From contig JAKPOP010000016.1 in assembly GCA_029547805.1 (NCBI GenBank), forward strand, positions 1-64,000: 64,000 nt of DNA, given 5' to 3'. Position numbers and translations under genes: made by a program. This document shows, piece after piece, positions 5,317 to 60,976 of the stretch (positions within the stretch are counted from its first letter, which is position 1; every line of letters starts with the position of its first letter). This stretch comes from Deltaproteobacteria bacterium. Its GTDB lineage: Bacteria > Myxococcota_A > UBA9042 > DTJE01. Below the pieces are notes generated by a model that saw only the letters and a list, made by a program, of their open reading frames with translations, did no database searches and was not told the origin of the DNA.

Positions 5317-6336
5317 TCAGAGGCCTGCAATCGACGCGAAGTCCTCGATGCCCACGAAGACGTCGTCCTCCTGGGCGTCCTCCCCCAGGAAGTCCCAGTC
5401 GAAGGGCAGCCAGAAGTGGCCATCCTCGCCCCATCGCCTGCTGAAGTGGTTGCGGCACTTCCAGGCCCTGCGGCGCCGGTCGTAGCCGACCACCAGGTAG
5501 CAATGGAGCAGGTTCCGATCCCGCCGGGGACGATAGATGCCTCGGTCGTAGAGGAAGAAGTCCCGGGCCACGTGGGACTGGTGGATCAGCGGCCCCTGGT
5601 CCCGCAGGTAGCGCATCGCCCCTTCCACGTCATCGATGTCGATGTAGCGCAGGGACCGGACCCGGGTTCGGGGCCCCGGAAGGGACCGGGGGTCCTGCTG
5701 GAAGCCATCGTACGGGTCCGGATCCAGGTGACGGGGCAGCAGGCCCTCCTCCCGGGCGCGCTCCAGCGCCTTGTCCAGATTCCATCCCTCCCAGCAGAGC
5801 CCGTCGCCGTTGAAGAAGAACTCCGCCTCCGAGAGGCTCGGCAGGTCCATGCGCCCGGTCCGGATCCGGGCCGTCGTCTCGACGGCACAGGTGACCGCAA
5901 AGGAGACGCAGGCCGCGCAGAAGCCCTGATGTTCCGGCGGATCCAGGGGACAGGGGCGCCGGGTGGTCCAGTCCCAGGTCTCGGGAAGGTCTGCCGAGAG
6001 CGGGGCATGATGCGCCCTGGCCACCGGTGCCCGCCTCCGGTCCTCCCGGGCCTCCCCCGGGGTCGCCCGGTCCGCTGACGTCGGAGCCCGCCCGCGACGG
6101 GTCGCCTTCCGGACGCTCTCCCCCTGGACCTGCCCCACCTGCCAGGGCTCGTTCGGGTCCCGGAGCGGCACGCCGATGACGTTGCCGAACCAGCATGTCT
6201 CCCGCAGTCGATAGGCCTCAGGAGCGGGCCAGTCCTCGGCAACGACGCGTCGCATGGCCTCGAGGGTGTCCTGGTTCAGCACCAGCAGGAAAAGGTCCGC
6301 CGGATTGGGATTGGAGCCGGGCGGGCTCGAGGACAT
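5317..6336 (-). CDS. Papain-family (C1) cysteine protease
   Basis: The 339-residue product carries the C1 peptidase signature: the oxyanion Gln and catalytic Cys lie in HQGFCAACVSFA (Q137, C143), the catalytic His in NLLHCYLVVGYD (about 282), and the Asn in KCRNHFSRRWGE (about 299). LPETWDWT near residue 117 is the usual start of a mature papain domain, so residues 1-115 may be a propeptide. No signal peptide is visible, unlike secreted papain relatives, which points to cytoplasmic action. It lies 34 bases downstream of a small Lys/Ala/Pro-rich protein gene and close to a RiPP-type radical SAM gene, so a role as maturation or leader protease is possible but unproven. An AGGGG box precedes the ATG. 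Confidence 0.8.
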   Translation of the reverse strand: MSSSPPGSNPNPADLFLLVLNQDTLEAMRRVVAEDWPAPEAYRLRETCWFGNVIGVPLRDPNEPWQVGQVQGESVRKATRRGRAPTSADRATPGEAREDRRRAPVARAHHAPLSADLPETWDWTTRRPCPLDPPEHQGFCAACVSFAVTCAVETTARIRTGRMDLPSLSEAEFFFNGDGLCWEGWNLDKALERAREEGLLPRHLDPDPYDGFQQDPRSLPGPRTRVRSLRYIDIDDVEGAMRYLRDQGPLIHQSHVARDFFLYDRGIYRPRRDRNLLHCYLVVGYDRRRRAWKCRNHFSRRWGEDGHFWLPFDWDFLGEDAQEDDVFVGIEDFASIAGL

Positions 6337-6370: not shown

Positions 6371-6754
6371 TCAGGCGCCGACGACGTTGATGTCGTTGAT
6401 CTTTCGAGCCGCCTCGGCGAAGTCCCTGAAGTCGTCCACCGAGAGGGACTTGATGAAGGCCCGGGTGCTTGTGGGGGGCAGTTTCAGTTCGTCGATCATC
6501 TCGGTCATGCGGGCCCGGGCCTTCTCCACCAGGGCCTTGTACTCGGCATCGGTGGCCGGTTTCGCCTCGTAGAGGAGGCCCCGGAGGACGTCGTCCATCA
6601 GGCACGCGGCGATGAACTTCTCGAACTTGAGGGGCGCGATGGTCCCGGTGGGGGCCGGCTTCCGGGCCGGGGTCTTCGGGGCCGCGGCCGTCTTCGAGGT
6701 GGGGGCCTTCTTCGGAGCAGCGGTCTTCTTCGGGGGGGCCTTCTTGGAATCCAT
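6371..6754 (-). CDS. Small protein with Lys/Ala/Pro-rich N-terminus
   Basis: This 127-residue protein has two parts. Residues 1-42 are a disordered, histone H1-like Lys/Ala/Pro/Thr repeat. Residues 43-127 are predicted to be mostly helical and end in INDINVVGA. A strong AGGAGG site precedes the ATG at 6754, and a TTGACA/TATCAA promoter sits just upstream. It shares an operon with the papain-like protease. The VVGA end resembles leader-cleavage ends of some RiPP precursors, but nothing follows it, so calling it a precursor would be speculation; a nucleoid-associated or regulatory protein is just as likely. Confidence 0.65.
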   Translation of the reverse strand: MDSKKAPPKKTAAPKKAPTSKTAAAPKTPARKPAPTGTIAPLKFEKFIAACLMDDVLRGLLYEAKPATDAEYKALVEKARARMTEMIDELKLPPTSTRAFIKSLSVDDFRDFAEAARKINDINVVGA

Positions 6755-6802
6755 GCGGGACCTCCTGAGTTGAAGATGGACAGATTCCGGGATCTCACCG
6801 CC

Positions 6803-6831
6803 TTGATATGCGAACCGCTTCTGGATGTCAA
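6803..6831 (-). promoter_or_regulatory. Strong sigma70-type promoter for the small protein and protease
   Basis: On the minus strand TTGACA (6826-6831) and TATCAA (6803-6808) are separated by 17 bases, about 50 bases upstream of the ATG at 6754. The -35 box overlaps the stop codon of the radical SAM gene, so the downstream pair can be expressed independently of it. Confidence 0.65.
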
Positions 6832-8708
6832 GCGACGGAAATCCCCGGTTCGGGGAGCAGGCCCAGGTGGTCCAGATCCTCGGGATCGGCCCGGGCCAGG
6901 GGCACGAACCAGCCGTCCAGTTCGAGGGCGAGTCGCTCGTCGAGGGCCTGGCGTTGTCGTCGGGACCGGGGCGCCCGGGGTCCCTCGGTGAGCAGGAAGC
7001 GGGCCGTCGCGGCCCCGTCCAGGACCCGGAGGCCGCGATGGGGCGCGTCGGGACGGGAATCCCCAAGATACCAGCGACGGCCCAGGCGGAACACCCGGAG
7101 GTCCGCCGGGACGCCCTGCCAGACCTGTCGCCAGCGCGCCACTGCCTCGATCAGGGTGCGGACCCGGTCGGGGCGACGATAGCCGGCGCAGTCATACTGA
7201 CCCACGAAGTGGCTGGCCAGATCTTCGAGGTTCGCCGTCGGTGGAAAGAGGTCGTCGTAGGCCGGGAGGGGCCGGACATCCCGGATGCCCCAGGCCGCCG
7301 GGTCCCGGTGATAGGGCGAGTCCCGGTCGATGCTGACGTGGTAGACCATGCGGGGCGGGACCAGATGGTGCAGCCACGGGATGCGATCTGCGGACCGGAG
7401 ATAGGCCTCCTCCGTCTCTCCGGGCAGGCCCCAGAGGAGGTTCCAGAAGGGATGGATGCCCATCGATCGCAGGTTGCGCAGGGACCGGACCACCTGGGCG
7501 GCGGTGATGCCCTTGTGCATTGCCCGCAGGAAGTCCGTGTCCAGGGCCTCGAAGCCCGGTTCGACGACCTCGACCCTCCCGCGGCGCATCTTCCAGGCCA
7601 GACCCAGTGGCACATCCGGGGGCGAGCAGAGGTGGACCCGGGAGGTCGGCGGGTCCCGGGCCAGCACCCCGATCAGGTCCGGCGGCGCCAGGGTGTCCGT
7701 GAGGAAGAGGGGCCTGCCCGGGTGCCGCTCGTTGAGGGCCCGGATCTCCGCCCGGACGGCGACGACAGGCCGACGCCGGAAGGCCCGCATCGCCCCGTTG
7801 AGCCCGCAGAAGGTGCAATGGCCCCGCTCGCCCCGGAGGCACCCCCGGCTGGCCTCGGTGACCACTTCCAGGGCGTCGTCCCGTCCCGCCCAGTCGGGCG
7901 TCTCGAACTGCCGGGTCAGGTCGTCGAACCGTACCGGCGGCAGGGAGTCCATCGCCGGAGGAATCCCCGGCACGATGCGGGTCTCGGGCCGCCTCCCGTG
8001 CAGGAAATCGTCCAGTGTCCGGGGGAAGGTGATTTCGCACTCCCCTTCGAAGACGTGGTCCACGACCGTACCGGCGGGGTCCAGGGAGGCGATGCCTCGA
8101 GCGGTCGGCCCGAAGCAGTTGCCGCCGCCGATCACGGTGATGCAGTCGGGTCGATGCCGTCGCAGGGACTTCAGGATGGCCATCGAGGAGTTGATCTGGT
8201 CGAAGGAACAGGAGCAGCCGACGACGGGAAAGGGCAGCGCTGCCAGGATCCTGCCGAGGTCCTCGGCGAACCGGAAGGCCTCCTGCTCCAGGCGTTGCAG
8301 GGTCGGGAGGTCCCAGGGAGCGGGCCTCGGATCCAGCAGGTCCAGCCCCGACAGGTGCCGGGCCTTCCCTCGGCCCACGCGGGCCGACAGGGACTGGAAC
8401 GTCCGGCCGTGCCTCCCGAGGGCCGGGAGACCGTGGGCCGCCCGGGCGAAGAGGCGCTCCCCGGGGAAGCCGGTCACAAAGGCGCTGTCCATGCAGAATC
8501 GATCGTAGAGGTCGACGCCGACCCGGGCGGCAAACCACAGGTTCGCATAGAGGATCCGGACCCGCAGGCCGCGGGCGGCGCAACAGGCCTGGAGGAGATG
8601 GGGACCGAAGGCCGCCAGGCGGGTCTGGGCGAAGGGGGGGATCACCAGCAGGGCATCGCCGCCGTCGGCAAACCAGCGAAGGGGGCCTTCCTGCACGTCC
8701 GCCGTCAT
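6828..8708 (-). CDS. RiPP-maturation type B12-binding radical SAM enzyme
   Basis: The 626-residue product matches the ribosomal-peptide-maturation radical SAM family, whose members are thought to modify (often C-methylate) precursor peptides. The iron-sulfur cluster motif has the family's long spacing, C290-x7-C298-xx-C301, embedded in RGERGHCTFCGLNG. The N-terminal 200 residues hold a cobalamin-binding-like Rossmann region with ITVIGGGNCFG. Later segments such as NLLWGLPGETEEAY fit the TIM-barrel core. The start at 8708 overlaps the upstream isoprenoid-synthase-like gene by ATGA, which argues for a joint function. No obvious short precursor gene lies between the two, and the substrate is unknown. 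The long continuous frame upstream to 9812 is a shadow of the neighbouring gene. Confidence 0.85.
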   Translation of the reverse strand: MTADVQEGPLRWFADGGDALLVIPPFAQTRLAAFGPHLLQACCAARGLRVRILYANLWFAARVGVDLYDRFCMDSAFVTGFPGERLFARAAHGLPALGRHGRTFQSLSARVGRGKARHLSGLDLLDPRPAPWDLPTLQRLEQEAFRFAEDLGRILAALPFPVVGCSCSFDQINSSMAILKSLRRHRPDCITVIGGGNCFGPTARGIASLDPAGTVVDHVFEGECEITFPRTLDDFLHGRRPETRIVPGIPPAMDSLPPVRFDDLTRQFETPDWAGRDDALEVVTEASRGCLRGERGHCTFCGLNGAMRAFRRRPVVAVRAEIRALNERHPGRPLFLTDTLAPPDLIGVLARDPPTSRVHLCSPPDVPLGLAWKMRRGRVEVVEPGFEALDTDFLRAMHKGITAAQVVRSLRNLRSMGIHPFWNLLWGLPGETEEAYLRSADRIPWLHHLVPPRMVYHVSIDRDSPYHRDPAAWGIRDVRPLPAYDDLFPPTANLEDLASHFVGQYDCAGYRRPDRVRTLIEAVARWRQVWQGVPADLRVFRLGRRWYLGDSRPDAPHRGLRVLDGAATARFLLTEGPRAPRSRRQRQALDERLALELDGWFVPLARADPEDLDHLGLLPEPGISVA

Positions 8709-9694
8709 GGGGCCTCGTTCTCCGGGGGGGCCTCGACGATCCTCCCGGCCACCCGATCGAGCAAGGACGACAGCCCCCGGTGGGCCGCCGCGTGCCGTCG
8801 TCGGCGGGCGAGATGCGCCTCCAGGCGGGCGTCCAGATAGGTCATCAACGACGGGATCTCCAGGGCCCGGGCCGCCCGGATCGCGGGCACCCAGAGTCGA
8901 TCCAGCATTCCGAAGGCCCAGGCCGGTCCCTCCCGGATCATCCACGCACCCGCGTCGCCTGACATCGGGGGGCGGCTTCGCCCATCCGGGGACCCGGCGT
9001 GACGGGCCGCCTCCCACAGCAGCCAGGTGGTCCGACCGTGGGCCAGGTCCTCTCGCCAGTCGAAGACATCGTCCTCCAACTGGTGCCACCGACCATAGCG
9101 GGTCACGAACCGGTCCCAGGCCTGGGCCCGGTCGGTGCGCTGCCGCAGGTGCAGCACCGCGGTGACCGGGATCAGGGCCGCCCGGGTCTTCCGGGCGGAA
9201 CTGCGACGGTATTCCCGGGCGTCGATCCTCGGGACGACCCCGTCCCGGAGCGTGGCCTCGGAGGTCTCGGTCCAGAGCCTGCGGAAGTCCTCGAAGAAGG
9301 GATGATCGACGGGGAACAGGCGCCGGTAGGGGTCCTCGAAGATCAGGTGCAACGGCCCGAGGGCCGGGAGCAGGGCGAGGGTCTCGGGGCTGTTCCGGTC
9401 GGTCGAGTCGTCGATGAGGCGGATGTGCAGGTACCCGGCCATCGAGGACCGGATCAACGCGCGTTGGAGGGACCCATCGACCCGTTCCGCGAGGCTCTCC
9501 TCCGCGAACCAGGGGAGCCGGAGCAGGGGGAAGGCCCGGACGTCCGTCAGGTAGCGCCAGGGCTCCTGGCGGCCCCGAAGCGAGGTGAACCAGTGGACCA
9601 GACGACGGCCCGTCACCGGCCCCAGGGACCGGAGGTCCCCCCGCAGGTCCTCCCAGGCCCGCCGCACCGTGTCCAGGAAGAGGGCCTCGTCCAT
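8705..9694 (-). CDS. Class I isoprenoid synthase-like enzyme
   Basis: The 329-residue product is mostly helical and has both metal-binding motifs expected of class I prenyltransferases and terpene synthases: DDSTD at residues 95-99, and a second Asp-rich motif at 208-216 in LEDDVFDWREDLAHGR. These would bind the magnesium ions that hold an isoprenoid diphosphate. Overall sequence fits neither canonical polyprenyl synthases nor squalene/phytoene synthases, so substrate and product are unknown. The ATG at 9694 is preferred because GGAGGGA lies just before it; an in-frame ATG at 9751 has no good ribosome site. It overlaps the radical SAM gene by ATGA. A minus-strand TATCAT at 9728-9733 may be its -10 box. 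Confidence 0.7.
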   Translation of the reverse strand: MDEALFLDTVRRAWEDLRGDLRSLGPVTGRRLVHWFTSLRGRQEPWRYLTDVRAFPLLRLPWFAEESLAERVDGSLQRALIRSSMAGYLHIRLIDDSTDRNSPETLALLPALGPLHLIFEDPYRRLFPVDHPFFEDFRRLWTETSEATLRDGVVPRIDAREYRRSSARKTRAALIPVTAVLHLRQRTDRAQAWDRFVTRYGRWHQLEDDVFDWREDLAHGRTTWLLWEAARHAGSPDGRSRPPMSGDAGAWMIREGPAWAFGMLDRLWVPAIRAARALEIPSLMTYLDARLEAHLARRRRHAAAHRGLSSLLDRVAGRIVEAPPENEAP

Positions 9695-9794
9695 GTTCCC
9701 TCCGAGCCGGCCGTCTCCGTGGAGGCGATGATACATCGGCGGGGACGCCATGTCCGGGGGCCTCGGGGCCTCGGCCGTGGGCCGCTCGTTGGGA

Positions 9795-9822
9795 TTGACA
9801 ACGAGGAAGCACGGCCTATAAT
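9795..9822 (+). promoter_or_regulatory. Near-consensus promoter of the rpmH operon
   Basis: TTGACA at 9795-9800 and TATAAT at 9817-9822 match both sigma70 consensus boxes exactly with a 16-base spacer. The rpmH start follows 73 bases downstream. This is the best promoter in the window, as expected for ribosomal protein expression. Confidence 0.8.
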
Positions 9823-9894
9823 CGCGCCCCGGGTTCGTCCCGGGAATTGGACGCCGGAGTCGCGTGGGGTCCGGCGAGGAACGGGGAAGGCAAG

Positions 9895-34768: not shown

Positions 34769-34827
34769 TCGTTGGAAACGGTCGGCATGGTCTACACCAG
34801 CCTGTGCCGCCCTGGAGGATGTTGCCC

Positions 34828-35028
34828 GTGATCTCAGAGGAGTCAATGACCTTGAAGGAGGTCGCGCGCCTCCTGAAGGTCGCCGAGAAGACGGTCAACA
34901 CCATGGCCCAGAACAAGGAGCTCCCGGCGTTCAAGGTCCGCGGCCAGCCGCACTTCCGCCGCGGGGACATGGACCACGGGGTCGAGGAGCAGAAGGCACA
35001 GGCCGCCGGGGAGGACTTCAATGAGTGA
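34828..35028 (+). CDS. Small HTH (excisionase/MerR-like) DNA-binding protein, MAD1-like
   Basis: The 66-residue product is a single winged-helix domain of the excisionase/BldC type: MTLKEVARLLKVAEKTVN is the helix-turn-helix and LPAFKVRGQPHFRRGDMD the wing. Its position as first gene of a methylase/kinase/ATPase operon matches the HTH regulator (MAD1) of methylation-associated defence systems. The GTG at 34828 has GGAGG nine bases ahead; the in-frame ATG at 34846 has AGAGGAG three bases ahead and would give 60 residues. The stop overlaps the methylase ATG by eight bases. Likely role: autoregulator of the operon. Confidence 0.75.
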   Translation: MISEESMTLKEVARLLKVAEKTVNTMAQNKELPAFKVRGQPHFRRGDMDHGVEEQKAQAAGEDFNE

Positions 35029-37123
35029 GCGGGCAACGGCGGGCAAGCGCCGCAAGCGCCATGAGGAGGTCGAATGGGCTGTTGCCGATGTCGTCGACAG
35101 CGACACCGGCTCGTTCGACGATGCTGATGAGGACGACGATGCCGAGTTCGTGCGCGACGGTTTTGTTCTGGATTTCATCTCCGGTACCAGGGAGATGAAG
35201 GAAACCCCCAAGGAACTCGTGCGCCAGCGCATCGCCCGGGCGCTGTTCCACGAGTACGGGATCTCGGTCAACGACATGGAGGCTGATTTCCCGGTGTCGG
35301 TTGGCGGACGCCGCCGTCGGGTGGACATCGCCATCTTCGCGCCGGGCAAACCCCACACCAGCGAGCACCTGCGCCGGGTCGTGGTCTGCCGCCCGGAGCC
35401 CAAGCAGAACAAGCGCGGCGCGGTGAAGATGCGCGACTACGAGCAGGCCGCCAAGGACATCGAGGAGATCAAGCCGTTCTTCGAAGAATGTGAGGAGTGC
35501 GAATACGGGCTATGGACCAACGGCCTCGAGTTCTTCTTCGTGCGGAAGAAGAAGTCGAAGTGGGAGGTCGATGCCGAGCCGATCGGTGACTGGCCGATGG
35601 GCGACGATTCAATTGGCACGCGCGACGTGGTGTCCCACGCGAAGTCGCGCCGCGCGCAACCCGACATGCTGCGCACCGCGTTCCGACGCTGCCACAACTT
35701 CATCCACGGCAACGAGGGAATGCCCAAGGACGCTGCCTTCTGGCAGTTCCTCTACCTCATTTTCTGCAAGATGCACGACGAGCGAGCGCCGCGCGAGCGT
35801 CGTCGTTTCTGGGCAGGGCCGCAGGAGCAGTTCACGGAGGCTGGACGCAAGGAGATCCAGAAGCGGATCGAGCCGCTCTTCAACGAAATCAAGCAGGAGT
35901 ACCGTTCGATCTTCCGCGGCAACGAGGAGATCACCCTTTCTCCGCGGGCTCTCGCCTTCATGGTGTCCGAACTGTCGAAGTACGAGCTAACCCGCATCGA
36001 CGTCGATGCCAAGGGCGCCGCGTATCAGGAAATCGTCGGCACCAACCTGCGCGGCGACCGCGGCCAGTACTTCACGCCACGAGGAGCCATCAAGCTCGTG
36101 GTCGAGATCCTCGACCCGAAGGAGCACGAGAAGGTTCTCGATCCCGCGTGCGGTACAGGAGGGTTTCTGGTTGCCACCCTCGCCCACATGATGGACCGCT
36201 TTCGCGAGGAGGCGAAGATCAGCGCCGGTGACGAGACCTCGGAGGAGTTCCAGTCCCTCCATGATCGGCTACGCGAGTATGCATCGAAGCAAGTTTACGG
36301 CTGCGACTTCGATCCGTTCCTGATCCGCGCCAGCCAGATGAACATGGTGATGGCTGGCGACGGCAAGGGTCATCTCTACAACATCAACTCGCTCGAGTTT
36401 CCCGAGGGCTACCTGCCAGGCGTCGAACCCGCGAAGAAGGACATTCCGTTCGGCTCGATAGACGTGGTGATGACCAATCCCCCCTTCGGCTCGGGCATTC
36501 CCATCACCGACGAGAACATCCTGCGACACTTCCACCTCGCGTCCATCTGGGAGCGGACCGAAGACGGCTCTTTCCGCGAGACCCCGAAACGCCAGAGCAG
36601 CGTTGCGCCCGAGGTGCTGTTCATCGAGCGCTGCCTCGATTGGCTCAAGCCGGGCGGCCGGATGGGCATCGTCCTGCCCGACGGCATCCTGGGCAATCCG
36701 GCCGCCGAGTACATCCGCTGGTGGATCCTCCGGCACGCCTGGGTTTTGGCGAGCGTGGACCTGCCGGTGGAGACCTTCATCGTCGAGGCGAACGTCAACA
36801 TCCTGACGAGCCTTCTGTTCCTGAAGAAGAAGCCGCCGGAGGTGATCCAGCGGGAGGCCATGAGCGGTGCGGCCGACTACCCGGTGTTCATGGCTGTGGC
36901 TGAGAAGGTCGGCTTCGATCGCCGCGGCAACGTCCTGTACAAGCGCTCGCCCGAGGGCGAGGAGCTGACCCGGGACACCGAAGAGATCGAGACCATCACG
37001 GTGGGAGGGCGCAAGGTGGCGCGCACCTTTCGCCGCAAGGAGAAGATCGTCGACAATGACCTGCCTGAGATCGCGGAGCGCTACCGCGCCTTCAGGCGGC
37101 AGCACGCGGAGCCGGGGAAATGA
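35021..37123 (+). CDS. N6-adenine DNA methyltransferase with N-terminal nuclease-like domain, MAD2-like
   Basis: The 700-residue product has an acidic N-terminus, then a domain resembling the N-terminal (PD-(D/E)xK) domain of type I restriction R subunits: VDIAIF with D102 and E126-x-K128. A linker leads to an HsdM-like N6-methylase: helical region at about 210-345, motif I DPACGTGG (374-381) for S-adenosylmethionine, and catalytic NPPF (486-489). The methylase would mark host DNA together with the S subunit encoded two genes later. It is coupled to the HTH gene by an 8-base overlap and to the next methylase by ATGA. Confidence 0.88.
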   Translation: MSERATAGKRRKRHEEVEWAVADVVDSDTGSFDDADEDDDAEFVRDGFVLDFISGTREMKETPKELVRQRIARALFHEYGISVNDMEADFPVSVGGRRRRVDIAIFAPGKPHTSEHLRRVVVCRPEPKQNKRGAVKMRDYEQAAKDIEEIKPFFEECEECEYGLWTNGLEFFFVRKKKSKWEVDAEPIGDWPMGDDSIGTRDVVSHAKSRRAQPDMLRTAFRRCHNFIHGNEGMPKDAAFWQFLYLIFCKMHDERAPRERRRFWAGPQEQFTEAGRKEIQKRIEPLFNEIKQEYRSIFRGNEEITLSPRALAFMVSELSKYELTRIDVDAKGAAYQEIVGTNLRGDRGQYFTPRGAIKLVVEILDPKEHEKVLDPACGTGGFLVATLAHMMDRFREEAKISAGDETSEEFQSLHDRLREYASKQVYGCDFDPFLIRASQMNMVMAGDGKGHLYNINSLEFPEGYLPGVEPAKKDIPFGSIDVVMTNPPFGSGIPITDENILRHFHLASIWERTEDGSFRETPKRQSSVAPEVLFIERCLDWLKPGGRMGIVLPDGILGNPAAEYIRWWILRHAWVLASVDLPVETFIVEANVNILTSLLFLKKKPPEVIQREAMSGAADYPVFMAVAEKVGFDRRGNVLYKRSPEGEELTRDTEEIETITVGGRKVARTFRRKEKIVDNDLPEIAERYRAFRRQHAEPGK

Positions 37124-39141
37124 GCGAAGAGCTTGAAGACCAGATCGAGGGTGAGGAGGAGAGCGACGAGGAGTCCGGTGGCGCGGATACCCTCATCGAC
37201 ATCCTGACCGGCGAGCCGATCGCGGCCTCGGCCAAGAACCGCTTGTTGCAGAAGGTGCTGCGGCAGCTCATCGAGAGCTATGGCTTCGACCGCAAGGACA
37301 TCAAGGCCAACTACCGGCTCCGTGCCAAGGGCAAGCGCCAGCAGTCGGTCGACATCGCCATCATGCGTCACGACACCGAGGCCTGCGACGAAAACGTCGA
37401 GCGAATCGTGGTCTGCGAGAACCAGAAGGCGAGAGAGAAGCTGCGAAGCCCTCACGAGGCGGCCGCCGACCTGCGCAAGCTGCACAGGAAGCTTGAGCTC
37501 TTCCCTTCGTGCCACCTGGGCATGTGGACCAACGGCCACGAAGAGTTTTTCGTTCGGGTCCAGGACACGACCTTCGAGACGAGGTTCCTCAACATCGGCG
37601 CGTGGCCAGCGCCGGGCGAGCGCACCGATGATGTGCTGCGCGAGGGCGGCACCATCCAGGTAGCCGCCGATCCCGAGGACCTCGAGGCTGCACTGGGCCG
37701 TTGCCACCAGTACCTGACCAAGAACCTCATGCTCGGCGGCGACGCCTTCAAGCCGCTCGGCGCGTTGCTCATCTCCAAGCTCTACGACGAGACACGGCCA
37801 GCGGGGCAAAGGCAGTTCTGGATCCGCGGTGACGAGCCCTTCACCGCCGAGGGGCAGGCGGCCATCCGCAGGCGTGTGGCCGCATGCTTCGAGGCGGTGC
37901 ACGTCTGGCAGCCCGAGGTGTTGAAGCACGGATGGGACCTGGATCACCTCGATGCCGCGCAGACGAGCAGGCTGGTGATGGAGCTGGCCCGCTACTCCCT
38001 CGCCGACAGCCTGCCGCGAAGTCGGACGATCGCCTACCGCTCGGCCGTGCGCTCGACGATGGACGGCAAGGAGGGCCGCTATCCGACGCCGCTCAACGTG
38101 GCCGAGATGGTGGTGCGGATGCTCGACCCCGGGCCCAACGACCGAGTGTTCGATGGGGCGTGCGGCACCGGGACATTCCTCGGCATGGCCGCGGCTCACG
38201 TCTTCGAGTCCTTCCTCTCGAGCGCCGGAGTGAAGCCGCACACCGCGACGGCGCAGCAGCTGCGAGAGGCCCAAGCCAAGACGGCCGCGTGGGCGCGCGA
38301 GCATGTGTTCGGCTGCGACATGGCCCCATCTCTCGTCGTGGCCGCGCGGTTGAACGTGCTGCTCACGGCGGGGCACCCCGGCAACATTTTCCGCATCGAC
38401 GCGCGGACCTTCCCCGACGGCGAGCTCGAGGATCAGGAGCGTGCAACGCGGTTGCTGCCTGAGGGGAGCATGGACATCGTGCTCACCAACCCCTGGTTCA
38501 GCACCAAGGACACGATCACCGACGAGGCGATCCTGAGGCGCCACGCGCTCGGCGAGAACTGGAACAGGACCGACGAGGGGACCTTCGTCAACAGCGGAAC
38601 CCCGAAGTCCGGCGGCGTGCCGCCTGAGGTGATCTTCCTGGAGCGCGCCTGGCGCTGGGCCAAGCCGGGCACGGGCCGCATCGCCATCCTGCTTCCCGAC
38701 GGGCTGCTCGGCAATCCAGGCGACGAGTACGTGCGCGCCTGGATCCTGCGCCACTGCGAGGTGCTCGCCAGCGTGGACCTGCCCGTCGAGCCGTTCAAGG
38801 TGACGCTGAAGGACTACCGCCTGACGCCGGCGTTGCCGAGCCTGCTCGTGCTTCGGCGCCGGAGCGAAGAGGAGCTCAAGCTCACTTCCTATCCCGACTA
38901 CTGGGTGTTCATGGCCGTCGTGAACCGCGCCGGTGTTGATGCGCGCGGCAACCTGCTCTTCGAGCGTGCGCCCGACGGCGAGGAGCTTGTGTTCGACGAC
39001 GAGGTCGTCGAGCGGGTACGCGTGGGCGGTCAGGTCGAGTCCCGGGTCGTTTCTCGCCGCCAGCGGCACATTGACGACGAGCTGCCGATCGTCGCCGAGC
39101 GCTACCGGAAGTTCGTCGCCGAGGGGAGGAAGGGACGATGA
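37120..39141 (+). CDS. Second N6-methyltransferase-like protein with altered NPWF motif
   Basis: The 673-residue product is a distant paralogue of the preceding methylase. It has a similar N-terminal nuclease-like domain (D78 in VDIAIM), but the expected E-x-K is changed to E100-N-Q-K103, so nuclease activity is doubtful. The methylase domain keeps motif I as FDGACGTG (344-351), while the catalytic motif is NPWF (457-460) instead of NPPF/Y. LLPDGLLGNPGDEYVRAWIL mirrors the equivalent segment of the first methylase. It may be a modified-specificity or non-catalytic partner forming a heterodimer. It occupies the position where, to my recollection, MADS loci carry mad3/mad4. Confidence 0.82.
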   Translation: MSEELEDQIEGEEESDEESGGADTLIDILTGEPIAASAKNRLLQKVLRQLIESYGFDRKDIKANYRLRAKGKRQQSVDIAIMRHDTEACDENVERIVVCENQKAREKLRSPHEAAADLRKLHRKLELFPSCHLGMWTNGHEEFFVRVQDTTFETRFLNIGAWPAPGERTDDVLREGGTIQVAADPEDLEAALGRCHQYLTKNLMLGGDAFKPLGALLISKLYDETRPAGQRQFWIRGDEPFTAEGQAAIRRRVAACFEAVHVWQPEVLKHGWDLDHLDAAQTSRLVMELARYSLADSLPRSRTIAYRSAVRSTMDGKEGRYPTPLNVAEMVVRMLDPGPNDRVFDGACGTGTFLGMAAAHVFESFLSSAGVKPHTATAQQLREAQAKTAAWAREHVFGCDMAPSLVVAARLNVLLTAGHPGNIFRIDARTFPDGELEDQERATRLLPEGSMDIVLTNPWFSTKDTITDEAILRRHALGENWNRTDEGTFVNSGTPKSGGVPPEVIFLERAWRWAKPGTGRIAILLPDGLLGNPGDEYVRAWILRHCEVLASVDLPVEPFKVTLKDYRLTPALPSLLVLRRRSEEELKLTSYPDYWVFMAVVNRAGVDARGNLLFERAPDGEELVFDDEVVERVRVGGQVESRVVSRRQRHIDDELPIVAERYRKFVAEGRKGR

Positions 39142-40550
39142 GGGAGAAGCAGATCAGAGTCGTCCCGAGTGCCTGGCTCGAGAAGGAGGGCCGACGGCTG
39201 GATTGCGGGCCATACCTGTCGGGTGCGATTGAAGCCAAGGTTTTGCTCGCCAAGATGAAGGCATCGAAGACGCCGCTGTGCAAACTCACCAAGGGAGGCA
39301 TGGCGGGCATCTTCAACGGCCCTCGCTTTCCTCGAGCCTACGTGCTCGATGCTGAATACGGAGTTCCGTTCCTCGGCAGCACCGACATTCTTCAGGCAGA
39401 CCTGAGCTTCGTGCCCCTGCTGGCGAAGAGACAGGTGCAGAATCAGCCGGACTTGTTGATAGACGAGGGCTGGACACTCATTTCTTGCTCGGGAACCGTC
39501 GGGCGCATGGCTTACTCACGTCCGGACATGAAAGGTATGGCGGGCTCTCAGCACTTCATGCGCGTGTTGGCCGATGATGGCAAGATTCGCTCTGGATACC
39601 TTCACGCCTACCTGAGCAGCAGGTTCGGTGTGCCGCTGGTGGTTGGAGGTACGTACGGCTCAATCATCCAACATATAGAGCCGGACCATCTCGCCAATCT
39701 CCCTGTTCCTCGCCTCGACGACCAGCTCGAGCGTCGGGCTCACGATTTGGTCACCCAGGCCGCCAAGCTCCGCAGCGAGTACCAGCAACAGGTCCAGCTT
39801 GCCACGAAGAAGCTCTTTGCCGCCGTTGGACTGAACGATATCACCTCCGGTGCGTGGCACAGCGACAATCCGGACTTGGGCTTCACGCGGAAGCTCGATT
39901 CACCGGCGTCTCTCAGGGCTCTCAACTTCAACCCGAGGTTCCAGCAGCTCTGTGACACGATCCGGGCGAAGTCGTGGAGGCCTCTTGGCGAGCTGTGCAA
40001 ACCGGGCACGCTCAAGCGTGGTGGCCGCTACAAGCGGATCGATGCGGAACCGGAATACTCCTATCAGCTCATTGGGCAGAAAGAGATCTTCTGGGTGCGG
40101 CCGGAGGGCCGTTGGATTGCAAAGAAGTCGGTCGGTACTGATGTGCTCGTCGAGCCTGGCACAACTCTCGTTGCTGCCCGCGGTACGTTTGGTGAGTCTG
40201 AGCTCTACTGCCGATCGGAGTTCGTCTGGGGCAAGGACGCCGAGCGTGCCTACTCCGAGGACTTCCTTCGAGTGATCGCCGATGGCGACAAGATACCTCC
40301 GGGCTGTCTCTTTGCCTTCATGCGATCTGAAACGACATTCCGAATGCTCCGCTCGGTGTCGATGGGAACGAAGTTGCAGGACCATCATCCACGGTTCTTG
40401 CACGAGCTTCCCGTCCCGTATCCCGACAGGCGACAACGCGACGAGATCCACGATCTGGTGACCGACGCCTACGACAAGCGGCATCGGTCGGTGAAGCTCG
40501 AGGACGAGGCCGTAGCCATGGTCGAGGCTGCTATCGAAGGAGGTGCCTAA
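39138..40550 (+). CDS. Type I restriction-modification specificity (S) subunit, MAD5-like
   Basis: S subunits read the DNA target and direct methylase or nuclease partners. The 470-residue product has two target-recognition domains separated by a coiled coil (about 200-230): YGVPFLGSTDI, SGTVGRM and GSIIQHIEPDHLANLPVP in the first half, and SYQLIGQKEIF, AARGTFGESELYCRSEF and HHPRFLHELPVPYPD in the second, the usual twofold layout. It overlaps the preceding methylase by ATGA and abuts the kinase gene (TAATG). The recognised sequence cannot be predicted. Confidence 0.9.
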   Translation: MREKQIRVVPSAWLEKEGRRLDCGPYLSGAIEAKVLLAKMKASKTPLCKLTKGGMAGIFNGPRFPRAYVLDAEYGVPFLGSTDILQADLSFVPLLAKRQVQNQPDLLIDEGWTLISCSGTVGRMAYSRPDMKGMAGSQHFMRVLADDGKIRSGYLHAYLSSRFGVPLVVGGTYGSIIQHIEPDHLANLPVPRLDDQLERRAHDLVTQAAKLRSEYQQQVQLATKKLFAAVGLNDITSGAWHSDNPDLGFTRKLDSPASLRALNFNPRFQQLCDTIRAKSWRPLGELCKPGTLKRGGRYKRIDAEPEYSYQLIGQKEIFWVRPEGRWIAKKSVGTDVLVEPGTTLVAARGTFGESELYCRSEFVWGKDAERAYSEDFLRVIADGDKIPPGCLFAFMRSETTFRMLRSVSMGTKLQDHHPRFLHELPVPYPDRRQRDEIHDLVTDAYDKRHRSVKLEDEAVAMVEAAIEGGA

Positions 40551-43500
40551 TGGCCAAAGTCATCGCCATCGGTCAGCCTGCCAACGAGTCGGAGCGTCAG
40601 GCCATCGCCTACCTGCGGGACAACCTCTCCAACGCGTTCACGGTCATCCACAACTTCGAGCTGAGGCAGGGCCACGAGCTGTACGAGATCGACATCGCCC
40701 TCTTGTGCCCGCACTGCGTATTCGTCATCGACGTGAAGGGGACGCGGGGGCACGTCGACATCTACGGCAGCCAATGGTATCCGGAGGGCCGCGCCCCCTA
40801 CCATTCGCCGCTCGCCATCCTGCGCAACCACGCCAAGGCGCTCAAGACTCTGATCTGCGATCAGTACCCGGCGAATGACGCAATGGGCCGCGTCTGGGTC
40901 GACGCGGCCGTGTTGATGACGGCACCCGATGCACTCGTCGAGGACCACGGAGGTCAGGACGGCCCCTCGGTCGCGTACCTCAAGAAGTGCACCGCCTTCT
41001 TCCAGGACAAGGGGCGAGTGCGCCCGGGGTGCTCGACGGACATCCGTGCCCAGCTCGGACAGATCGAGAAGGCCATCGTCGGCCGCGCCAAACCCCAGAG
41101 CGCCCCTCCCTGCTACGGCAACTGGCAGGTCGAGGAGAAGCTTGGCGGCACCGACCGCTACACCGAGTACCGCGCCAGGCACACGCTGATCGGGACCAGG
41201 CGCGGCGGCACTGCGCGGCTGCGCGTGTACCAGGTGGATCCGTACTTGCCGGAGGAGCAGCGCAAGCGAGAACTCGACCGCATCGGAAACGCGTTCCGGG
41301 CCGTGGCCTCGATCCCCGGCCATCCCAACATCCTGCCTGTTCGCGACTTCTTTCCCACCGAGGCCGAGGACCGACTCGTGCTCGTGACCGGCGACGTGGC
41401 AGGCCACGCCTTGCGCCAGCACATCAAGAAGAGCGGGCTGGCGCTCACGTTCGACCAGAAGATCGCCGTGATCCGAGACGTGCTCGCCGCGCTTGACCAC
41501 GCCCACCGCGCGGACCCGCAGGTCGTCCACCGCAACCTGAACCCGGACGCCGTGATCGTGAGCACCACTGGCCACGCCCTGATCTGTGGCTTCGACTACG
41601 CGCGCTCTGGCAGGGACCGGAGGAGCACCATCGCCCAGGACATCGTCGACGAGATCGACCCGAGGTACCAGGCCCCCGAGTGCCACAAGGACCCGTCGAA
41701 GGCAAGCGTGGCCTCGGACCTCTACTCGGCAGGGCTCGTGTTTTACGAGTTGCTGGTGGGCGAGCTGCCGTGGTCCTCCATCGACGACATGATGGAGAAG
41801 GACGGCGTGTTCCCGGTGAAGCCGTCCGAACAGAAGCCGGATCTTCCCGCCGAGTTGGACGGCTGGCTCCAGGCGCTCTGCTCGTTCGACGTGGAGGACC
41901 GGCCCTCGTCCGCAGCCGTGGCTCTCTCGAGGTTCAACGAGATCGTGGGACCTGACCCGAGGGAGGCCGGAAAGCCGAAGCCGGGTGAGAGCCTGCCGCC
42001 CGTTGTGGCGCGGCCAGAGATCGACTACCGGGCGCTCAAGCGCGGGGAGGAAATCGCCAACCGGTTCCGTATCGAGGAAAAGCTCGGCGAGGGAGGTTTC
42101 GCAGCGGTGTACCGGGTCTTCGACTCCTTCGCGGACACGACCCGGGTTCTCAAGATCATCGTCAAGGATCGGCGATCAACCTTCCAGCGCCTCAAGCAGG
42201 AGTACTGCGTCCTCGAGAAGCTCAAGCCCCACCCGAACGTCGTTCGCGTGGTATGGGCGGACAAGCTTCCCGACGAGACCCCGTACCTCGTCTTCGAGTA
42301 CATTGCCGGCACCGGCGTCGACGACCTGCTCACGAGCGGTTCGGTCTCGCTCGAGGACGTCAAGCGCATCGGCCTCGACACCCTGACAGGGCTCGAGTAC
42401 CTGCACGCGAGCGGCGTCTTCCACCGCGACATCAAGCCGTCGAACCTGCTCTGGACCGACCAGGGGGTGCGCATCATCGACTTCAACGTGGCGGTGCGTC
42501 AGGACGACGAAGAAGCCGGGGCAGGCGGCACGCGACGCTACATCCCCCCGGACCTCGAGTTGTCCGATTCGTTGACGTTCGAGGAGAAGGTTGACTGGGA
42601 CCTGTACTCGCTCGGCATCACGCTCTATGAGTGCGCCACCGGCTGGAAGTACCCGTGGGTCGAGCCGATGCCGCCGGTGAAGGTCCTGCCCAGGGATCCG
42701 CGGGACTACGTCTCGGACATGAGCCCGGAGCTCGCGCAGGTCATCCTCCGCGCGATTGCGCCGAGCCGGGTCGACCGCTTTCTCTCGGCGACCGAGTTCC
42801 GGGAGGCGCTCGCGCGAGTGGTCAAGGTTCGAGTCACGCCCCCGGCGCCGGTGGTCACGATTACGCCCAAGCCGGACGCCGGGGTGCTGGCACGTTTCCA
42901 GCCCCACAAGCCCAACTTCAACCCGTTCGTCACGCACCTGCTCACGATGTACAGCCAGAGCCCGACGACCAACGCGGGCACGCGCGGGCTGGATGACGTC
43001 GGGCGCGAGACGTACATTCCCACCTTGCTTGACGACAGGCTGCGGCCGGCCGTGCTCGCCGGCGAGTTTCGTCTGGTCGCTGTCACAGGGAACGCGGGCG
43101 ACGGCAAGACCGCCTTCATCAACCGGATCGAGGATGCAGACGAGGTGAAATCCACCCTGGTCCGGACGATGAACGGCTCGGAGTTCACCCTCCGAGGTCG
43201 TCGCTTCCTCACCAAATACGATGGCAGTCAGGACGAGGACACCAAGGTCAACGACGAGGTGCTTCAGGAGTTCTTGGGGCCGTTCGCGGGAACGGATTCG
43301 ATCACCTGGCCTGGCGACGAGACGCGGATCATCGCGATCAACGAGGGCCGCCTCATTGATTTCCTGACCGAGCACGAGGACCAGTACCCGCGCCTGCGGG
43401 ACCTGGTCATGGCCGGCCTTGCCGGTGCCCCTGCCTCGGATGGCGTCGTCGCGGTGAACCTCAACCTGCGCGCTGTCGTGGCTGACCCGCCCGGTGTGCC

Positions 43501-44692
43501 TGGGCCCAACTCGATCTTTGACCGACTCTTGCTTCGCCTCGTGAACGACAAGTTCTGGGAGCCCTGTGCGAGCTGCGACATCCGCGACCGATGCTACGTA
43601 TTCCACAACGCCCGGACCTTCATGGATCCCGTGGCCGGTCCCAAGGTCGCCGAGCGGTTGCGACGGCTCTACGCGATCACGCACCTGCGGGGGCGGCTGC
43701 ACATCACCATGCGCGACCTGCGCTCGGCCCTGGCGTTCACTCTCGCGGGCACGCGAGACTGCGACGACATCCACGCCCTGTACGCCAGCACAAGTTCGGA
43801 GGCTCGTTACCAGATCCTGCAGGGGTTCTACTTCAACGCCTGGCGCGGCGGGGCAGGCACCGCGGATCGGCTCCTGTCGTTGCTCGCCGAGATCGACATG
43901 GGAGAGGCGTCGAACCCGGACATCGATCGTGCGCTCGATTACCTGCCGCCTGACGCTGGCGAGCTGGCGCGGTTCACCTTTGCGTCACGGGCCGACTTCG
44001 ACACCCAGCTCCTCGACCGCATGTACCGGGAGCTGCCCCGAGACGCGTCGGCTGGCTCTGCCGCGCGACGTATGGCGGACCATCGCGAGTACGTTGCCAT
44101 GCTTCGCCGGCGCCAGTTCTTCGAGCGTCGCGACGAGAACTGGAAGGAGATGCTTCCGTATCGGACAGCGGACGAATTCTGGCGATTGATCACAGGCCAG
44201 ACCGAACCCGGCATCCATCTCGACGAGATCCTGACGGCCATCAATCGCGGCGAGGGCTTGAGCAACCCCAAGCGGCTCGGCAACGCCCTCGCCCTGCGGG
44301 TCCGTGTGGTCGAGCGCGCCACGGTACGAAGCTACCGGCTGTTCCCAGGTGAGTGCTTCCGCCTCGACCTCCCTTCTGGAGCCAGCAACGAGTTCGTCGA
44401 ACACATCCCACAGACACTGCGGCTCGTCTACACAGCGCCATCTGGGCAGCAAGCCGAGCTACTCGTGGACCTCGATATCTACGAGATGCTGGCCCGATTG
44501 AACAATGGCTACCGGCCGAGCCTCGAAGAGTTGCAGGGCTACTACCTCACGCTGACGGTCTTCAAGAACGTCCTGTCCTCTGCCCCCTACCAGGAGGTCT
44601 TGCTCAGCCGGACAGGCCACGACTTCTACCGCATTCGGCGTGAGTCGGAGGGCACGCTTCATCTGGAGGCGCTGCCGGGAGGGACGATCTGA
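40550..44692 (+). CDS. NERD nuclease-like / pseudokinase / Ser-Thr kinase / NTPase fusion, MAD6-like
   Basis: This 1380-residue protein combines four modules. Residues 1-130 are a NERD domain with PD-(D/E)xK-like residues D48 and D61-V-K63. Residues of about 185-470 form a kinase-like domain whose catalytic motif is HRNLNPD and whose DFG equivalent is GFD, so it is probably a pseudokinase. Residues of about 495-775 form a second kinase with a good Gly loop (GEGGFAAV), HRDIKPSN and DFN in place of DFG, probably active. A P-loop (GNAGDGKT, about 846-853) starts a C-terminal NTPase-like half with a CxxC-x5-C motif near 1005. NERD plus kinase recalls PglW of BREX type 2 and the kinase of MADS. 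It probably senses infection and phosphorylates system partners (inference). Confidence 0.85.
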   Translation: MAKVIAIGQPANESERQAIAYLRDNLSNAFTVIHNFELRQGHELYEIDIALLCPHCVFVIDVKGTRGHVDIYGSQWYPEGRAPYHSPLAILRNHAKALKTLICDQYPANDAMGRVWVDAAVLMTAPDALVEDHGGQDGPSVAYLKKCTAFFQDKGRVRPGCSTDIRAQLGQIEKAIVGRAKPQSAPPCYGNWQVEEKLGGTDRYTEYRARHTLIGTRRGGTARLRVYQVDPYLPEEQRKRELDRIGNAFRAVASIPGHPNILPVRDFFPTEAEDRLVLVTGDVAGHALRQHIKKSGLALTFDQKIAVIRDVLAALDHAHRADPQVVHRNLNPDAVIVSTTGHALICGFDYARSGRDRRSTIAQDIVDEIDPRYQAPECHKDPSKASVASDLYSAGLVFYELLVGELPWSSIDDMMEKDGVFPVKPSEQKPDLPAELDGWLQALCSFDVEDRPSSAAVALSRFNEIVGPDPREAGKPKPGESLPPVVARPEIDYRALKRGEEIANRFRIEEKLGEGGFAAVYRVFDSFADTTRVLKIIVKDRRSTFQRLKQEYCVLEKLKPHPNVVRVVWADKLPDETPYLVFEYIAGTGVDDLLTSGSVSLEDVKRIGLDTLTGLEYLHASGVFHRDIKPSNLLWTDQGVRIIDFNVAVRQDDEEAGAGGTRRYIPPDLELSDSLTFEEKVDWDLYSLGITLYECATGWKYPWVEPMPPVKVLPRDPRDYVSDMSPELAQVILRAIAPSRVDRFLSATEFREALARVVKVRVTPPAPVVTITPKPDAGVLARFQPHKPNFNPFVTHLLTMYSQSPTTNAGTRGLDDVGRETYIPTLLDDRLRPAVLAGEFRLVAVTGNAGDGKTAFINRIEDADEVKSTLVRTMNGSEFTLRGRRFLTKYDGSQDEDTKVNDEVLQEFLGPFAGTDSITWPGDETRIIAINEGRLIDFLTEHEDQYPRLRDLVMAGLAGAPASDGVVAVNLNLRAVVADPPGVPGPNSIFDRLLLRLVNDKFWEPCASCDIRDRCYVFHNARTFMDPVAGPKVAERLRRLYAITHLRGRLHITMRDLRSALAFTLAGTRDCDDIHALYASTSSEARYQILQGFYFNAWRGGAGTADRLLSLLAEIDMGEASNPDIDRALDYLPPDAGELARFTFASRADFDTQLLDRMYRELPRDASAGSAARRMADHREYVAMLRRRQFFERRDENWKEMLPYRTADEFWRLITGQTEPGIHLDEILTAINRGEGLSNPKRLGNALALRVRVVERATVRSYRLFPGECFRLDLPSGASNEFVEHIPQTLRLVYTAPSGQQAELLVDLDIYEMLARLNNGYRPSLEELQGYYLTLTVFKNVLSSAPYQEVLLSRTGHDFYRIRRESEGTLHLEALPGGTI

Positions 44693-46356
44693 TGGCAATC
44701 AAGGGAAAGGACCGCGAGTTCCGACTCCGACAACTCTCATACATCGACTTCAAGCCGGTGAACATGGACCGCGTGCTGACGATGCTGTTCCCTCGTTTGC
44801 GCTTCGGGGGCTACGGTACCCGCCGGCCGCCACGCAAGAACGACCTCACCGTCTCTGATTTTGCTCGCGAGTACGTGAAGGATCCGAAGCAGTTTGCTGG
44901 GTTCGCCGAGCATCAGGACCTCGTCGAGCGATGGATCGAAACGGACCTGATGGATATGGTCAACCGGGGCCGGCCGAACCAGGCGATCGCCGCCCCGAGG
45001 CCGCTGCACGGCAACACCTACAAGTTCCGGAACGCACGTCACGCGCGTGACTACGGCGCCGCCGAGCAACTCTACTGGATGCTCTACTACGCTCGTGGTG
45101 GAAGGGGACAGGTGGCTCGCGAGGCACTCACGCGCTTCTTCTTCGCGGGCATCGATCTGCATACCGACAAATACGATCCGTCCGCGTCGGTGGATGTCGA
45201 GACGCAGGCGCTGCTCCACTTCGACCAGCAGGTTTCCGTGGACATGCGCGACTCCCAGGAGCCCGAGCGCTTTCCTCCACTCTGCATTGGACAGGTGGAT
45301 CTCCTGGCCGACGATACGCTCAGGCTTCTTGCCTACGAGCCGTACATCCCCCGCACGGTCCTGGTCGAGTACCTGAAGACGCTGTTCGCCTTCCACCTCG
45401 GGCTCTACCATCTCCGACTCATCAAGCTCCTGCCCGAACTTGTGCGGCGGCGAAGCGCGGACCCGACTTGCGCATTCGAGGTGTGCCCCGTGTCACCCGA
45501 TCAGATGGAAGCTCACGGTGGTTGCCCGTATCGTGTCTATCTTCTGGCTGACCTCGGCAACGACCTTGACAGCCACATGGCCGCCCTGGCACGGCACAGC
45601 GCGGATGTGCACTACCGCCGCATTCCGACCTACGTCCAGTCGCACTACCTGTTGCGCAAGCTCGATGAGCTCGCAAACTACCTCAGCCATCGAGTGGGCA
45701 AACTACCGACTCCGGCGAACGGCTTCTTTGGCATCGGCAACTTGCTCGCCTTGCTCGAGCCGCCACATGCCGCCGATCGAGAAAGCTACTTCAAGGCCAG
45801 GCTCGCCGGACTGCTGGAGGACACGGGGGGCAATGCCCGAGAGGAGATCGATCCCGAGATCAAGCGCATCACCGAAATGGGCCTCAGCGATCTCGACATG
45901 TACGTCGAGATTCTGATGGCCCTTCGGGGTTCCTACCATCGTCGGTACATCACCGAGTTTCTGGACTCGGTGTTCAAGCGCGGAGACGCCGGTATCATGC
46001 ACCAGTCCAAGGCCAGCCCGCGAAGGTTCGCTGTCGGCAGTCAACTGCTCGAGGTCCTCCTCCAGATCGCGGTCCTGCGCTCGTCTGGTTCCGGCTTCTA
46101 TACGCGTGCATTGCGCATCGACGAGTTGCTTGTCTTCCTGCGTGAACGCTACGGCATCTACATTGATCGACTGCCGTCGGGAGATGGCTTCGGCACCGCA
46201 AGCATCAAGGACCTGGCAGCCCTGAGGCTGAACGTCCAAAGCTTCCGCTGCCGCCTTCGGGAGATCGGCTTCTTCCGAGATCTGTCAGATGCCTATATCA
46301 CGCAGACGATCATGCCTCGCTACACGATCGCGAAGACCAACGGAGGTGCGCCATGA
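44692..46356 (+). CDS. Defence-operon protein of unknown function, MAD7-like position
   Basis: The 554-residue product has no motif I recognise. It is mixed alpha/beta with no signal peptide, no transmembrane helix and no P-loop. The N-terminal 120 residues are basic and aromatic (YIDFKPVNMDRVLTMLFPRL). The C-terminal third is helical with SPRRFAVGSQLLEVLLQIAVL and LRIDELLVFLRERYGIYIDRLP segments that look like a winged-helix domain. It abuts the kinase gene (TGATG) and overlaps the ATPase gene by ATGA, so it is an obligate part of the system. Placement between kinase and HerA-type ATPase matches MAD7. Confidence 0.7.
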   Translation: MAIKGKDREFRLRQLSYIDFKPVNMDRVLTMLFPRLRFGGYGTRRPPRKNDLTVSDFAREYVKDPKQFAGFAEHQDLVERWIETDLMDMVNRGRPNQAIAAPRPLHGNTYKFRNARHARDYGAAEQLYWMLYYARGGRGQVAREALTRFFFAGIDLHTDKYDPSASVDVETQALLHFDQQVSVDMRDSQEPERFPPLCIGQVDLLADDTLRLLAYEPYIPRTVLVEYLKTLFAFHLGLYHLRLIKLLPELVRRRSADPTCAFEVCPVSPDQMEAHGGCPYRVYLLADLGNDLDSHMAALARHSADVHYRRIPTYVQSHYLLRKLDELANYLSHRVGKLPTPANGFFGIGNLLALLEPPHAADRESYFKARLAGLLEDTGGNAREEIDPEIKRITEMGLSDLDMYVEILMALRGSYHRRYITEFLDSVFKRGDAGIMHQSKASPRRFAVGSQLLEVLLQIAVLRSSGSGFYTRALRIDELLVFLRERYGIYIDRLPSGDGFGTASIKDLAALRLNVQSFRCRLREIGFFRDLSDAYITQTIMPRYTIAKTNGGAP

Positions 46357-57870: not shown

Positions 57871-58214
57871 CGCGGCCCCTCCGGCCCGACGGCCAGCCCG
57901 CAGGCGGTATCCCTGGAGTGGCTGATCGAGATCCGCACCTCTCGGAAGATCTCCGGTTCTCCCGGGACTTCCCCGGCGATGCGGGGGGCCCCGTTCTCGG
58001 CCCCGACGATCCGGAAGTCCCGGGGATGGCAGGACAGGTCCCAGGTCTGCCACAGGCGCACCAGGGCCTCCTTCAGGGCCATTCGTCCGGCCCAGGTCCG
58101 GATCGGAGCCCCCTCCAGGGACGCCGCCTCCCGGTCGTCGAAGTACCGGGACCGTTCCCGGGCCAGGAGGTCCTGGGCCTCGACGATGGGAAGGGTGCAC
58201 AGGACGGCCCTCAC
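57867..58214 (-). CDS. Small 4'-phosphopantetheinyl transferase-like protein (AcpS-type)
   Basis: The 115-residue product has the two signatures of holo-ACP synthases: RTWAGRMALKEALVRLW (Glu-Ala core, metal and CoA binding) and ISISHSRDTACGLAV. The N-terminal Asp-containing motif of AcpS is not obvious, so assignment rests on the second half. It would attach phosphopantetheine to the carrier protein of this pathway. The GTG at 58214 overlaps the upstream stop (GTGA). Confidence 0.7.
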   Translation of the reverse strand: MRAVLCTLPIVEAQDLLARERSRYFDDREAASLEGAPIRTWAGRMALKEALVRLWQTWDLSCHPRDFRIVGAENGAPRIAGEVPGEPEIFREVRISISHSRDTACGLAVGPEGPR

Positions 58215-58930: not shown

Positions 58931-58953
58931 CCCCGTCCCCCCGTTTCGACCCC

Positions 58954-60974: not shown

Positions 60975-60976
60975 GA

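Follow-up and report, generated by a model that had tools for sequence, protein, structure and literature searches.

An isoprenoid synthase-like gene shares a four-gene operon with a radical SAM gene and a candidate peptide precursor in a deltaproteobacterium

Organization of the operon

The stretch of DNA analyzed here (the window) comprises 64,000 nucleotides from a Deltaproteobacteria bacterium (GenBank assembly GCA_029547805.1, contig JAKPOP010000016.1) and contains an operon of four genes on the minus strand. The first gene (8705..9694) encodes a class I isoprenoid synthase-like protein of 329 amino acids, referred to here as the IDS-like protein, which we propose to be a peptide prenyltransferase. 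The second (6828..8708) encodes a B12-type radical SAM C-methyltransferase of 626 amino acids (TIGR03975). An SD-like GGAGG precedes the ATG of the IDS-like gene at 9694, and the TGA of this gene overlaps the ATG of the radical SAM gene by 4 bp (ATGA). A sequence-only reading of this DNA had described such an overlapping pair, and we confirmed both open reading frames, their coordinates, their strand and the overlap. The pair was therefore correctly placed, but the reading overlooked two further genes of the operon. After a gap of 73 bp lies a gene for a protein of 127 amino acids (6371..6754, minus strand), preceded by a perfect Shine-Dalgarno match, AGGAGG (6761..6766, minus strand); this is a candidate for the short precursor that the reading had suggested looking for nearby. 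After a further 34 bp lies an intact gene (5317..6336, minus strand) for a papain-like C1 peptidase of 339 amino acids, the proposed leader peptidase. The upstream boundary of the operon is an intergenic region (9695..9894) common to the operon and the divergent rpmH, which lies 200 bp from the operon start. We found neither a nucleotide cyclase gene nor an RRE-protease gene next to the window operon. Elsewhere in the window, positions 34819-51848 likely hold a MADS (methylation-associated defence system) with two mad2-like methyltransferases, mad5, mad6, mad7 and MAD8 in order, the last scoring 207.7 bits against NF047742 (cut-off 175).

The radical SAM protein belongs to a peptide-modifying family

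We found that the radical SAM protein carries the cluster motif CX7CX2C as CLRGERGHCTFC (residues 290-301, with C290, C298 and C301), in agreement with the earlier reading. It scores 330 bits against NCBIfam TIGR03975 (cut-off 281.85) and is a divergent member of this family, most others in the phylum scoring 400-717 bits; its relative at locus L028, described below, scores 360 bits. The B12-binding domain PF02310 was matched weakly (15.9 bits against a cut-off of 32.1). In a tree of the window protein and proteins from 24 further loci of the phylum, in which the outgroup rows were long-branched and the base of the family had a support of 82/85, the window protein nested within the TIGR03975 family in a clade of 6 rows with L102, L109 and L114 (support 100/100). 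This clade and the TIGR03975 score bear out its expected place within the RiPP family. Prior studies have demonstrated that PoyC of the polytheonamide pathway, which has a CX7CX2C motif, C-methylates valine (PMC5682303). The sequence-only reading had also raised a terpenoid as substrate of the radical SAM enzyme. We found no support for this, and action on a free terpenoid was dropped as a candidate since the enzyme family is peptide-specific. A separate region of the window (54487-63999) holds a lipid or aryl-type fatty acid cluster with StlD/DarB-like and FabF-like ketosynthases and two other B12-type radical SAM genes, one of which is near the ladderane-associated TIGR04072 (320.8 bits, cut-off 360).

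The IDS-like protein has the fold and motifs of trans-isoprenyl diphosphate synthases

Both Asp-rich motifs that the earlier reading had seen are in place. The first (FARM) is DDSTD at residues 95-99 (D95-D99), and the second is QLEDDVFDWRED, from residue 205 (Q205, D209, D212 and D216). As a single protein it scored 17.2 bits against Pfam polyprenyl_synt PF00348, below the gathering cut-off of 27, and an NCBIfam scan gave no match. A profile of 14 family members, when compared with the PDB, matched trans-isoprenyl diphosphate synthases (trans-IDS) only (19 of 19 matches, best E 0.002). The AlphaFold model of the protein (pTM 0.79) was matched by Foldseek to trans-IDS structures with a probability of 1.00. 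Since the single protein falls below the Pfam cut-off, "isoprenoid synthase-like" is an apt label.

Residues D95, D99, R168, Q205, D209, D212 and D216 are invariant in the 14 family members, and the IDS-like protein is therefore predicted from its sequence to be an active, Mg-dependent, diphosphate-ionizing enzyme. The trans-IDS-like peptide prenyltransferases (ComQ, PalQ, ChrP) have a conserved Gln shortly before the second Asp-rich motif. The window protein has Q205 at this position, but the ordinary synthase of the same genome has Gln there too (AFQVVDDLLD). Chain-elongating synthases carry a pair of Arg residues after the first Asp-rich motif that serves in IPP/diphosphate binding. We found RR within 8 residues after this motif in 2 of 32 family members, and the window protein lacks it; the pattern used missed the first motif of the genome's ordinary synthase, so this count has no control from that protein. 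The near-absence of the pair in the family favors an acceptor different from IPP.

Candidate precursor and C1 peptidase

The 127-aa protein has a disordered N-terminus rich in Lys, Ala and Pro, a helical middle and a conserved C-terminus, ARKINDINVVGA. It contains one Cys and no Trp, and its homologues likewise lack Trp. With the Lys/Ala/Pro region left out, the helical halves of the small proteins of the window and of genome G005 are homologous (shuffle p 0.0005). What makes this protein a candidate precursor is where its gene lies, its size, its translation signal and its conservation. Profile, hhalign and shuffle tests did not support an assignment as an NHLP-type (NF038399/TIGR03793) peptide: the protein gave no match to NF038399, its hhalign probability against NHLP-like peptides was 0.4 and the shuffle tests gave no support. 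The AlphaFold model had a pLDDT of 66, and a PDB search with it returned nothing meaningful. We found no NF038399 peptide elsewhere in genomes G000, G001 and G005. The C1 peptidase scores 66.1 bits against PF00112, has the catalytic residues Q137/C143, H278 and N296 in place and is 38% identical to its G005 counterpart. Papain-like C1 peptidases are a known type of RiPP leader protease. One of them, the C1A protease PoyH, cleaves off the leader during the biosynthesis of polytheonamides, a proteusin pathway (PMC10885120).

The operon is conserved in two other genomes

All four genes are present in two other genomes, G001 and G005. In G001, of the same genus, the IDS-like, radical SAM and small-protein genes are 78-80% identical to those of the window and the peptidase gene is also there; the operon is split over two contigs (L029/L034), and the truncated ends of these contigs suggest that the IDS-like and radical SAM genes are adjacent across the break between them. 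In G005, an uncultured Myxococcales of another genus (CAIZWN010000029.1), locus L028 holds in turn the peptide, the C1 peptidase, a cyclase-AAA-TPR protein, the IDS-like protein and the radical SAM protein, with short overlaps among the last three genes. The pairing is thus kept outside the source genome, as the sequence-only reading had required of it. Across the two genera the three enzymes share approximately 38-44% protein identity while the gene order is altered, and this conservation despite rearrangement argues for a joint function. A search with a three-member IDS-like alignment retrieved just these two known relatives, a search of genome contigs with the single IDS-like protein gave no matches and the 14 aligned members were too diverse to yield patterns.

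IDS-like genes are associated with NHLP-type peptides across the phylum

In an alignment search, 35 of the 379 genomes from the phylum proved to carry the IDS-like family; all sampling belongs to this one phylum, in which many genomes are fragmented into short contigs. Associations were counted on six-frame ORFs at 26 family loci; genes were called with a home-made codon model, and 20 further neighborhoods were added to the locus set. We found that an Os1348/NHLP-type peptide lies within 2.2 kb of the IDS-like gene at 17 of the 26 loci, with a start 13-135 bp from that gene at 13 of them. A nucleotide cyclase is present at 20 loci, a homologue of PqqD-RRE/M50 proteases at 14 and a class II terpene-cyclase-like gene at 7, while methyltransferases (4), C1 peptidases (3), radical SAM proteins (2) and a WelO5-type halogenase (1) are less frequent partners. 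The usual partners of the IDS-like gene are therefore peptide, cyclase and protease, and the radical SAM protein is one among several variable tailoring enzymes. Its pairing with the IDS-like gene, confined to one bacterial family in this single-phylum sample, is a lineage-specific variant of the broader association between IDS-like genes and peptides. No relatives of the IDS-like family were found on plasmids.

The NHLP-type peptides of the family are 66-79 amino acids long, with the consensus LxGRALxDAxFRxxLxADPxGTLxAEGYE. Five of those tested scored above the 40-bit cut-off of NF038399, an Os1348-type model of the NHLP clan, and those of L030 and L033 are remote NHLP-type members (hhalign 94%). 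Matches to NF038399 are rare (27 in 189 genomes), and a rough Fisher test of its co-occurrence with the IDS-like family by genome, in which the number of IDS-positive genomes in the sample was estimated, gave p ~1e-7. Genome G257 contains two IDS-like genes and two NHLP-type peptides, paired. In G038, G042 and G048 the NHLP-type peptide is at a locus other than that of the IDS-like gene, and therefore precursors can be unlinked; in G038 and G042 the IDS-like gene has no adjacent peptide, and one peptide cluster lies elsewhere with a methyltransferase, a C1 peptidase and a cyclase. Loci of this arrangement are L090 (3511-6689) and L091 (7760-10827), where an NHLP-type peptide, a methyltransferase, a C1 peptidase fusion and a cyclase are found together and the IDS-like gene is at a separate locus. 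Almost all family peptides lack Trp, and their C-terminal tails have no nucleophile in common.

Several further features lie beside the IDS-like gene and peptide. Proteins of 550-630 amino acids resembling class II terpene cyclases are encoded at L077 (2017-3669), L076 (8905-10608) and L079 (9753-11642, minus strand). The L079 protein contains RGIPPDSDDLGL (DxDD), and proteins of this kind have QxPDGSW-like repeats and weak PDB matches to copalyl diphosphate synthases and terpene cyclases; those of L076 and L079 gave no Pfam match. The DxDD-like and QW-like motifs are no more than suggestive of class II terpene cyclases. Immediately after an NHLP-type peptide, L031 (645-1752, genome G055) encodes a carrier-independent halogenase of the WelO5 type (PF22814, 195.7 bits) and then a methyltransferase, with an IDS-like gene adjoining, and a halogenated peptide-terpenoid is a possible product. 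Large nucleotide cyclase/AAA/TPR proteins recur beside the IDS-peptide pair (L028 7487-11515, L030 5363-9283, L090 6682-10623) and possibly act as sensors of the product.

A proposed pathway and its alternatives

Our data suggest that the window cluster probably makes a modified peptide. The operon holds parts that match the precedents of PalQ, a member of the IDS superfamily whose substrate for prenylation is an NHLP precursor (PMC10853753), PoyC and PoyH, and we therefore propose prenylation and C-methylation followed by cleavage. The 127-aa protein, made from its strong ribosome site, would supply a leader (the N-terminal and helical part) and a core (the C-terminal tail, about ARKINDINVVGA). 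The IDS-like enzyme would hold an allylic prenyl diphosphate via Mg2+ at its two Asp-rich motifs, ionize it and pass the prenyl group to the precursor rather than to IPP, in the manner of PalQ and ComQ. The B12-dependent radical SAM enzyme would C-methylate an unactivated carbon of the core, the side chains of Val, Ile and Asn being candidates, and the C1 peptidase would then free the modified core. The sequences show what the genes encode, that the catalytic motifs are intact, that the genes form a conserved operon and that the family as a whole is associated with RiPP precursors. We infer which protein is the precursor, that the peptide is the acceptor of the IDS-like enzyme, which residues are modified, in what order the steps run and what the product does, and we give this four-gene RiPP pathway an even chance of being right. 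The isoprenoid-decorated peptide of the sequence-only reading is supported at the level of context and precedent (PalQ/PalX, ComQ/ComX) rather than of chemistry. Every trans-IDS-like peptide prenyltransferase characterized so far has Trp as its acceptor (PMC13290415), and the absence of this acceptor from the 127-aa protein and from almost all family peptides speaks against prenylation. Also against the proposed pathway count the lack of detectable homology between the 127-aa protein and NHLP-like peptides, the restriction of the radical SAM pairing to one bacterial family and the lack of a nucleotide cyclase or RRE-protease gene beside the window operon.

Beyond the window, we tentatively envisage, at somewhat less than even prospects, an as yet undescribed class of peptide-terpenoids in Myxococcota. 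Stand-alone IDS-like maturases would prenylate a non-Trp residue on Os1348/NHLP precursors, class II cyclase-like enzymes would cyclize the chain in some lineages and tailoring would vary (halogenase, methyltransferase or, here, radical SAM C-methyltransferase). The nucleotide cyclase/AAA/TPR proteins may detect the product, in a manner distantly reminiscent of ComQXPA.

It is also conceivable, though unlikely, that the IDS-like enzyme turns prenyl diphosphates, by elongation or cyclization, into a free terpenoid, the RiPP peptide being either a parallel product or just a docking or regulatory protein. The trans-IDS fold and both Asp-rich motifs would suit such an enzyme, the second motif at L080 and L085 (NDVMGYERD or NDVLGWERD) resembles the NSE metal motif of class I terpene cyclases and the class II cyclase-like genes could use free prenyl diphosphates. 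However, the usual partner of the IDS-like gene is a RiPP-type peptide with an RRE-protease or C1 protease, the radical SAM partner in the window belongs to a peptide-modifying family and the elongation-type Arg pair is confined to the 2 of 32 members noted above.

We think it distinctly unlikely that the small protein is a pearlin-like carrier scaffold, on which a short C-terminal unit that was added, or its own last residues, are modified by the IDS-like and other enzymes and released by cleavage as a small molecule. The family's NHLP-like peptides do stop a few residues past the leader domain (tails RGEYLA and RKAAS), and variable tailoring genes (methyltransferase, halogenase, radical SAM) would suit a small product; yet the C-terminus of the window precursor is longer and conserved, and inspection of the neighborhoods, which used no profile, noticed no peptide aminoacyl-tRNA ligase. 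Slightly less probable again is a histone-like 127-aa protein with no part in the pathway, the real precursor being encoded at an unlinked site or left unannotated. Its Lys/Ala/Pro-rich N-terminus, its lack of homology to NHLP peptides and the unlinked NHLP-type peptides of G038, G042 and G048 would fit this, but its gene is in the operon in three genomes, one of them rearranged, directly before the C1 peptidase gene, its helical half is homologous across genera and G000, G001 and G005 have no NF038399 peptide elsewhere. Fortuitous neighbors with no joint function, a reading that the restriction of the radical SAM pairing to one bacterial family would favor, are highly improbable given the 4-bp overlap and the four genes kept across two genera in changed order.

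Comparison with known systems

IDS-derived prenylated RiPPs so far comprise very few systems, with a Trp acceptor in all. If true, the proposed peptide prenylation would extend them to a large, poorly mined phylum and to Trp-free precursors, and would combine separate prenyltransferase and class II cyclase genes as well as radical C-methylation; in the window operon, a single peptide would undergo both radical methylation and isoprenoid chemistry. With three to five genes each, the family's gene sets lend themselves to testing, and the recurrence of the family beside small precursor peptides suggests a type of peptide-terpenoid natural product that has been little explored. In the literature we searched, which did not extend to Hubrich et al. 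2024 (polycyclic isoprenoid RiPPs), we found no description of IDS-like enzymes that occur with Os1348-type peptides or of such enzymes in myxobacteria.

The peptides beside the IDS-like family match the same NHLP-clan model (NF038399) as Os1348 of Pseudomonas sp. Os17 (PMC7726476), whereas the window precursor does not; the Os1348 cluster has an acetyltransferase, an HEXXH protein and a SagB-type dehydrogenase, with no IDS reported. Likened by description, ComQ/ComX of Bacillus (PMC13290415, PMC10853753) also has an IDS-derived enzyme whose substrate is a ribosomal peptide, and a sensory gene lies next to them. ComQ differs in that its second Asp-rich motif is not a proper one and that its acceptor is Trp, and ComX is not known to be a precursor of the NHLP type. 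ChrPC combines an IDS-like prenyltransferase and a cyclase domain (reviewed in PMC13290415). In the ChrPC/NctPC fusions, again likened by description, an IDS-like or ABBA prenyltransferase and a terpene cyclase act on a RiPP with a Trp acceptor (PMC13290415). The sister loci have both kinds as separate genes, and the window operon has no cyclase gene. The polytheonamide pathway (PoyC, PoyH; PMC5682303, PMC10885120), like the window, joins a CX7CX2C B12-type radical SAM enzyme and a C1 peptidase in one RiPP cluster, but it has a proteusin (NHLP) precursor and no isoprenoid enzyme. In PalQ/PalX/PalP of Paenibacillus alvei (PMC10853753), as here and likened by description, an IDS-superfamily enzyme adjoins a precursor of the nitrile-hydratase-leader type, and PalQ shares the first Asp-rich motif with the window IDS-like protein. 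A regulator in the cluster is a further likeness, a histidine kinase in the PalQ cluster and a nucleotide cyclase in most relatives here. PalX ends in a Trp acceptor, whereas the window precursor lacks Trp. PalQ/PalX/PalP is described as three genes without a radical SAM enzyme or C1 peptidase, whereas the window operon has both.
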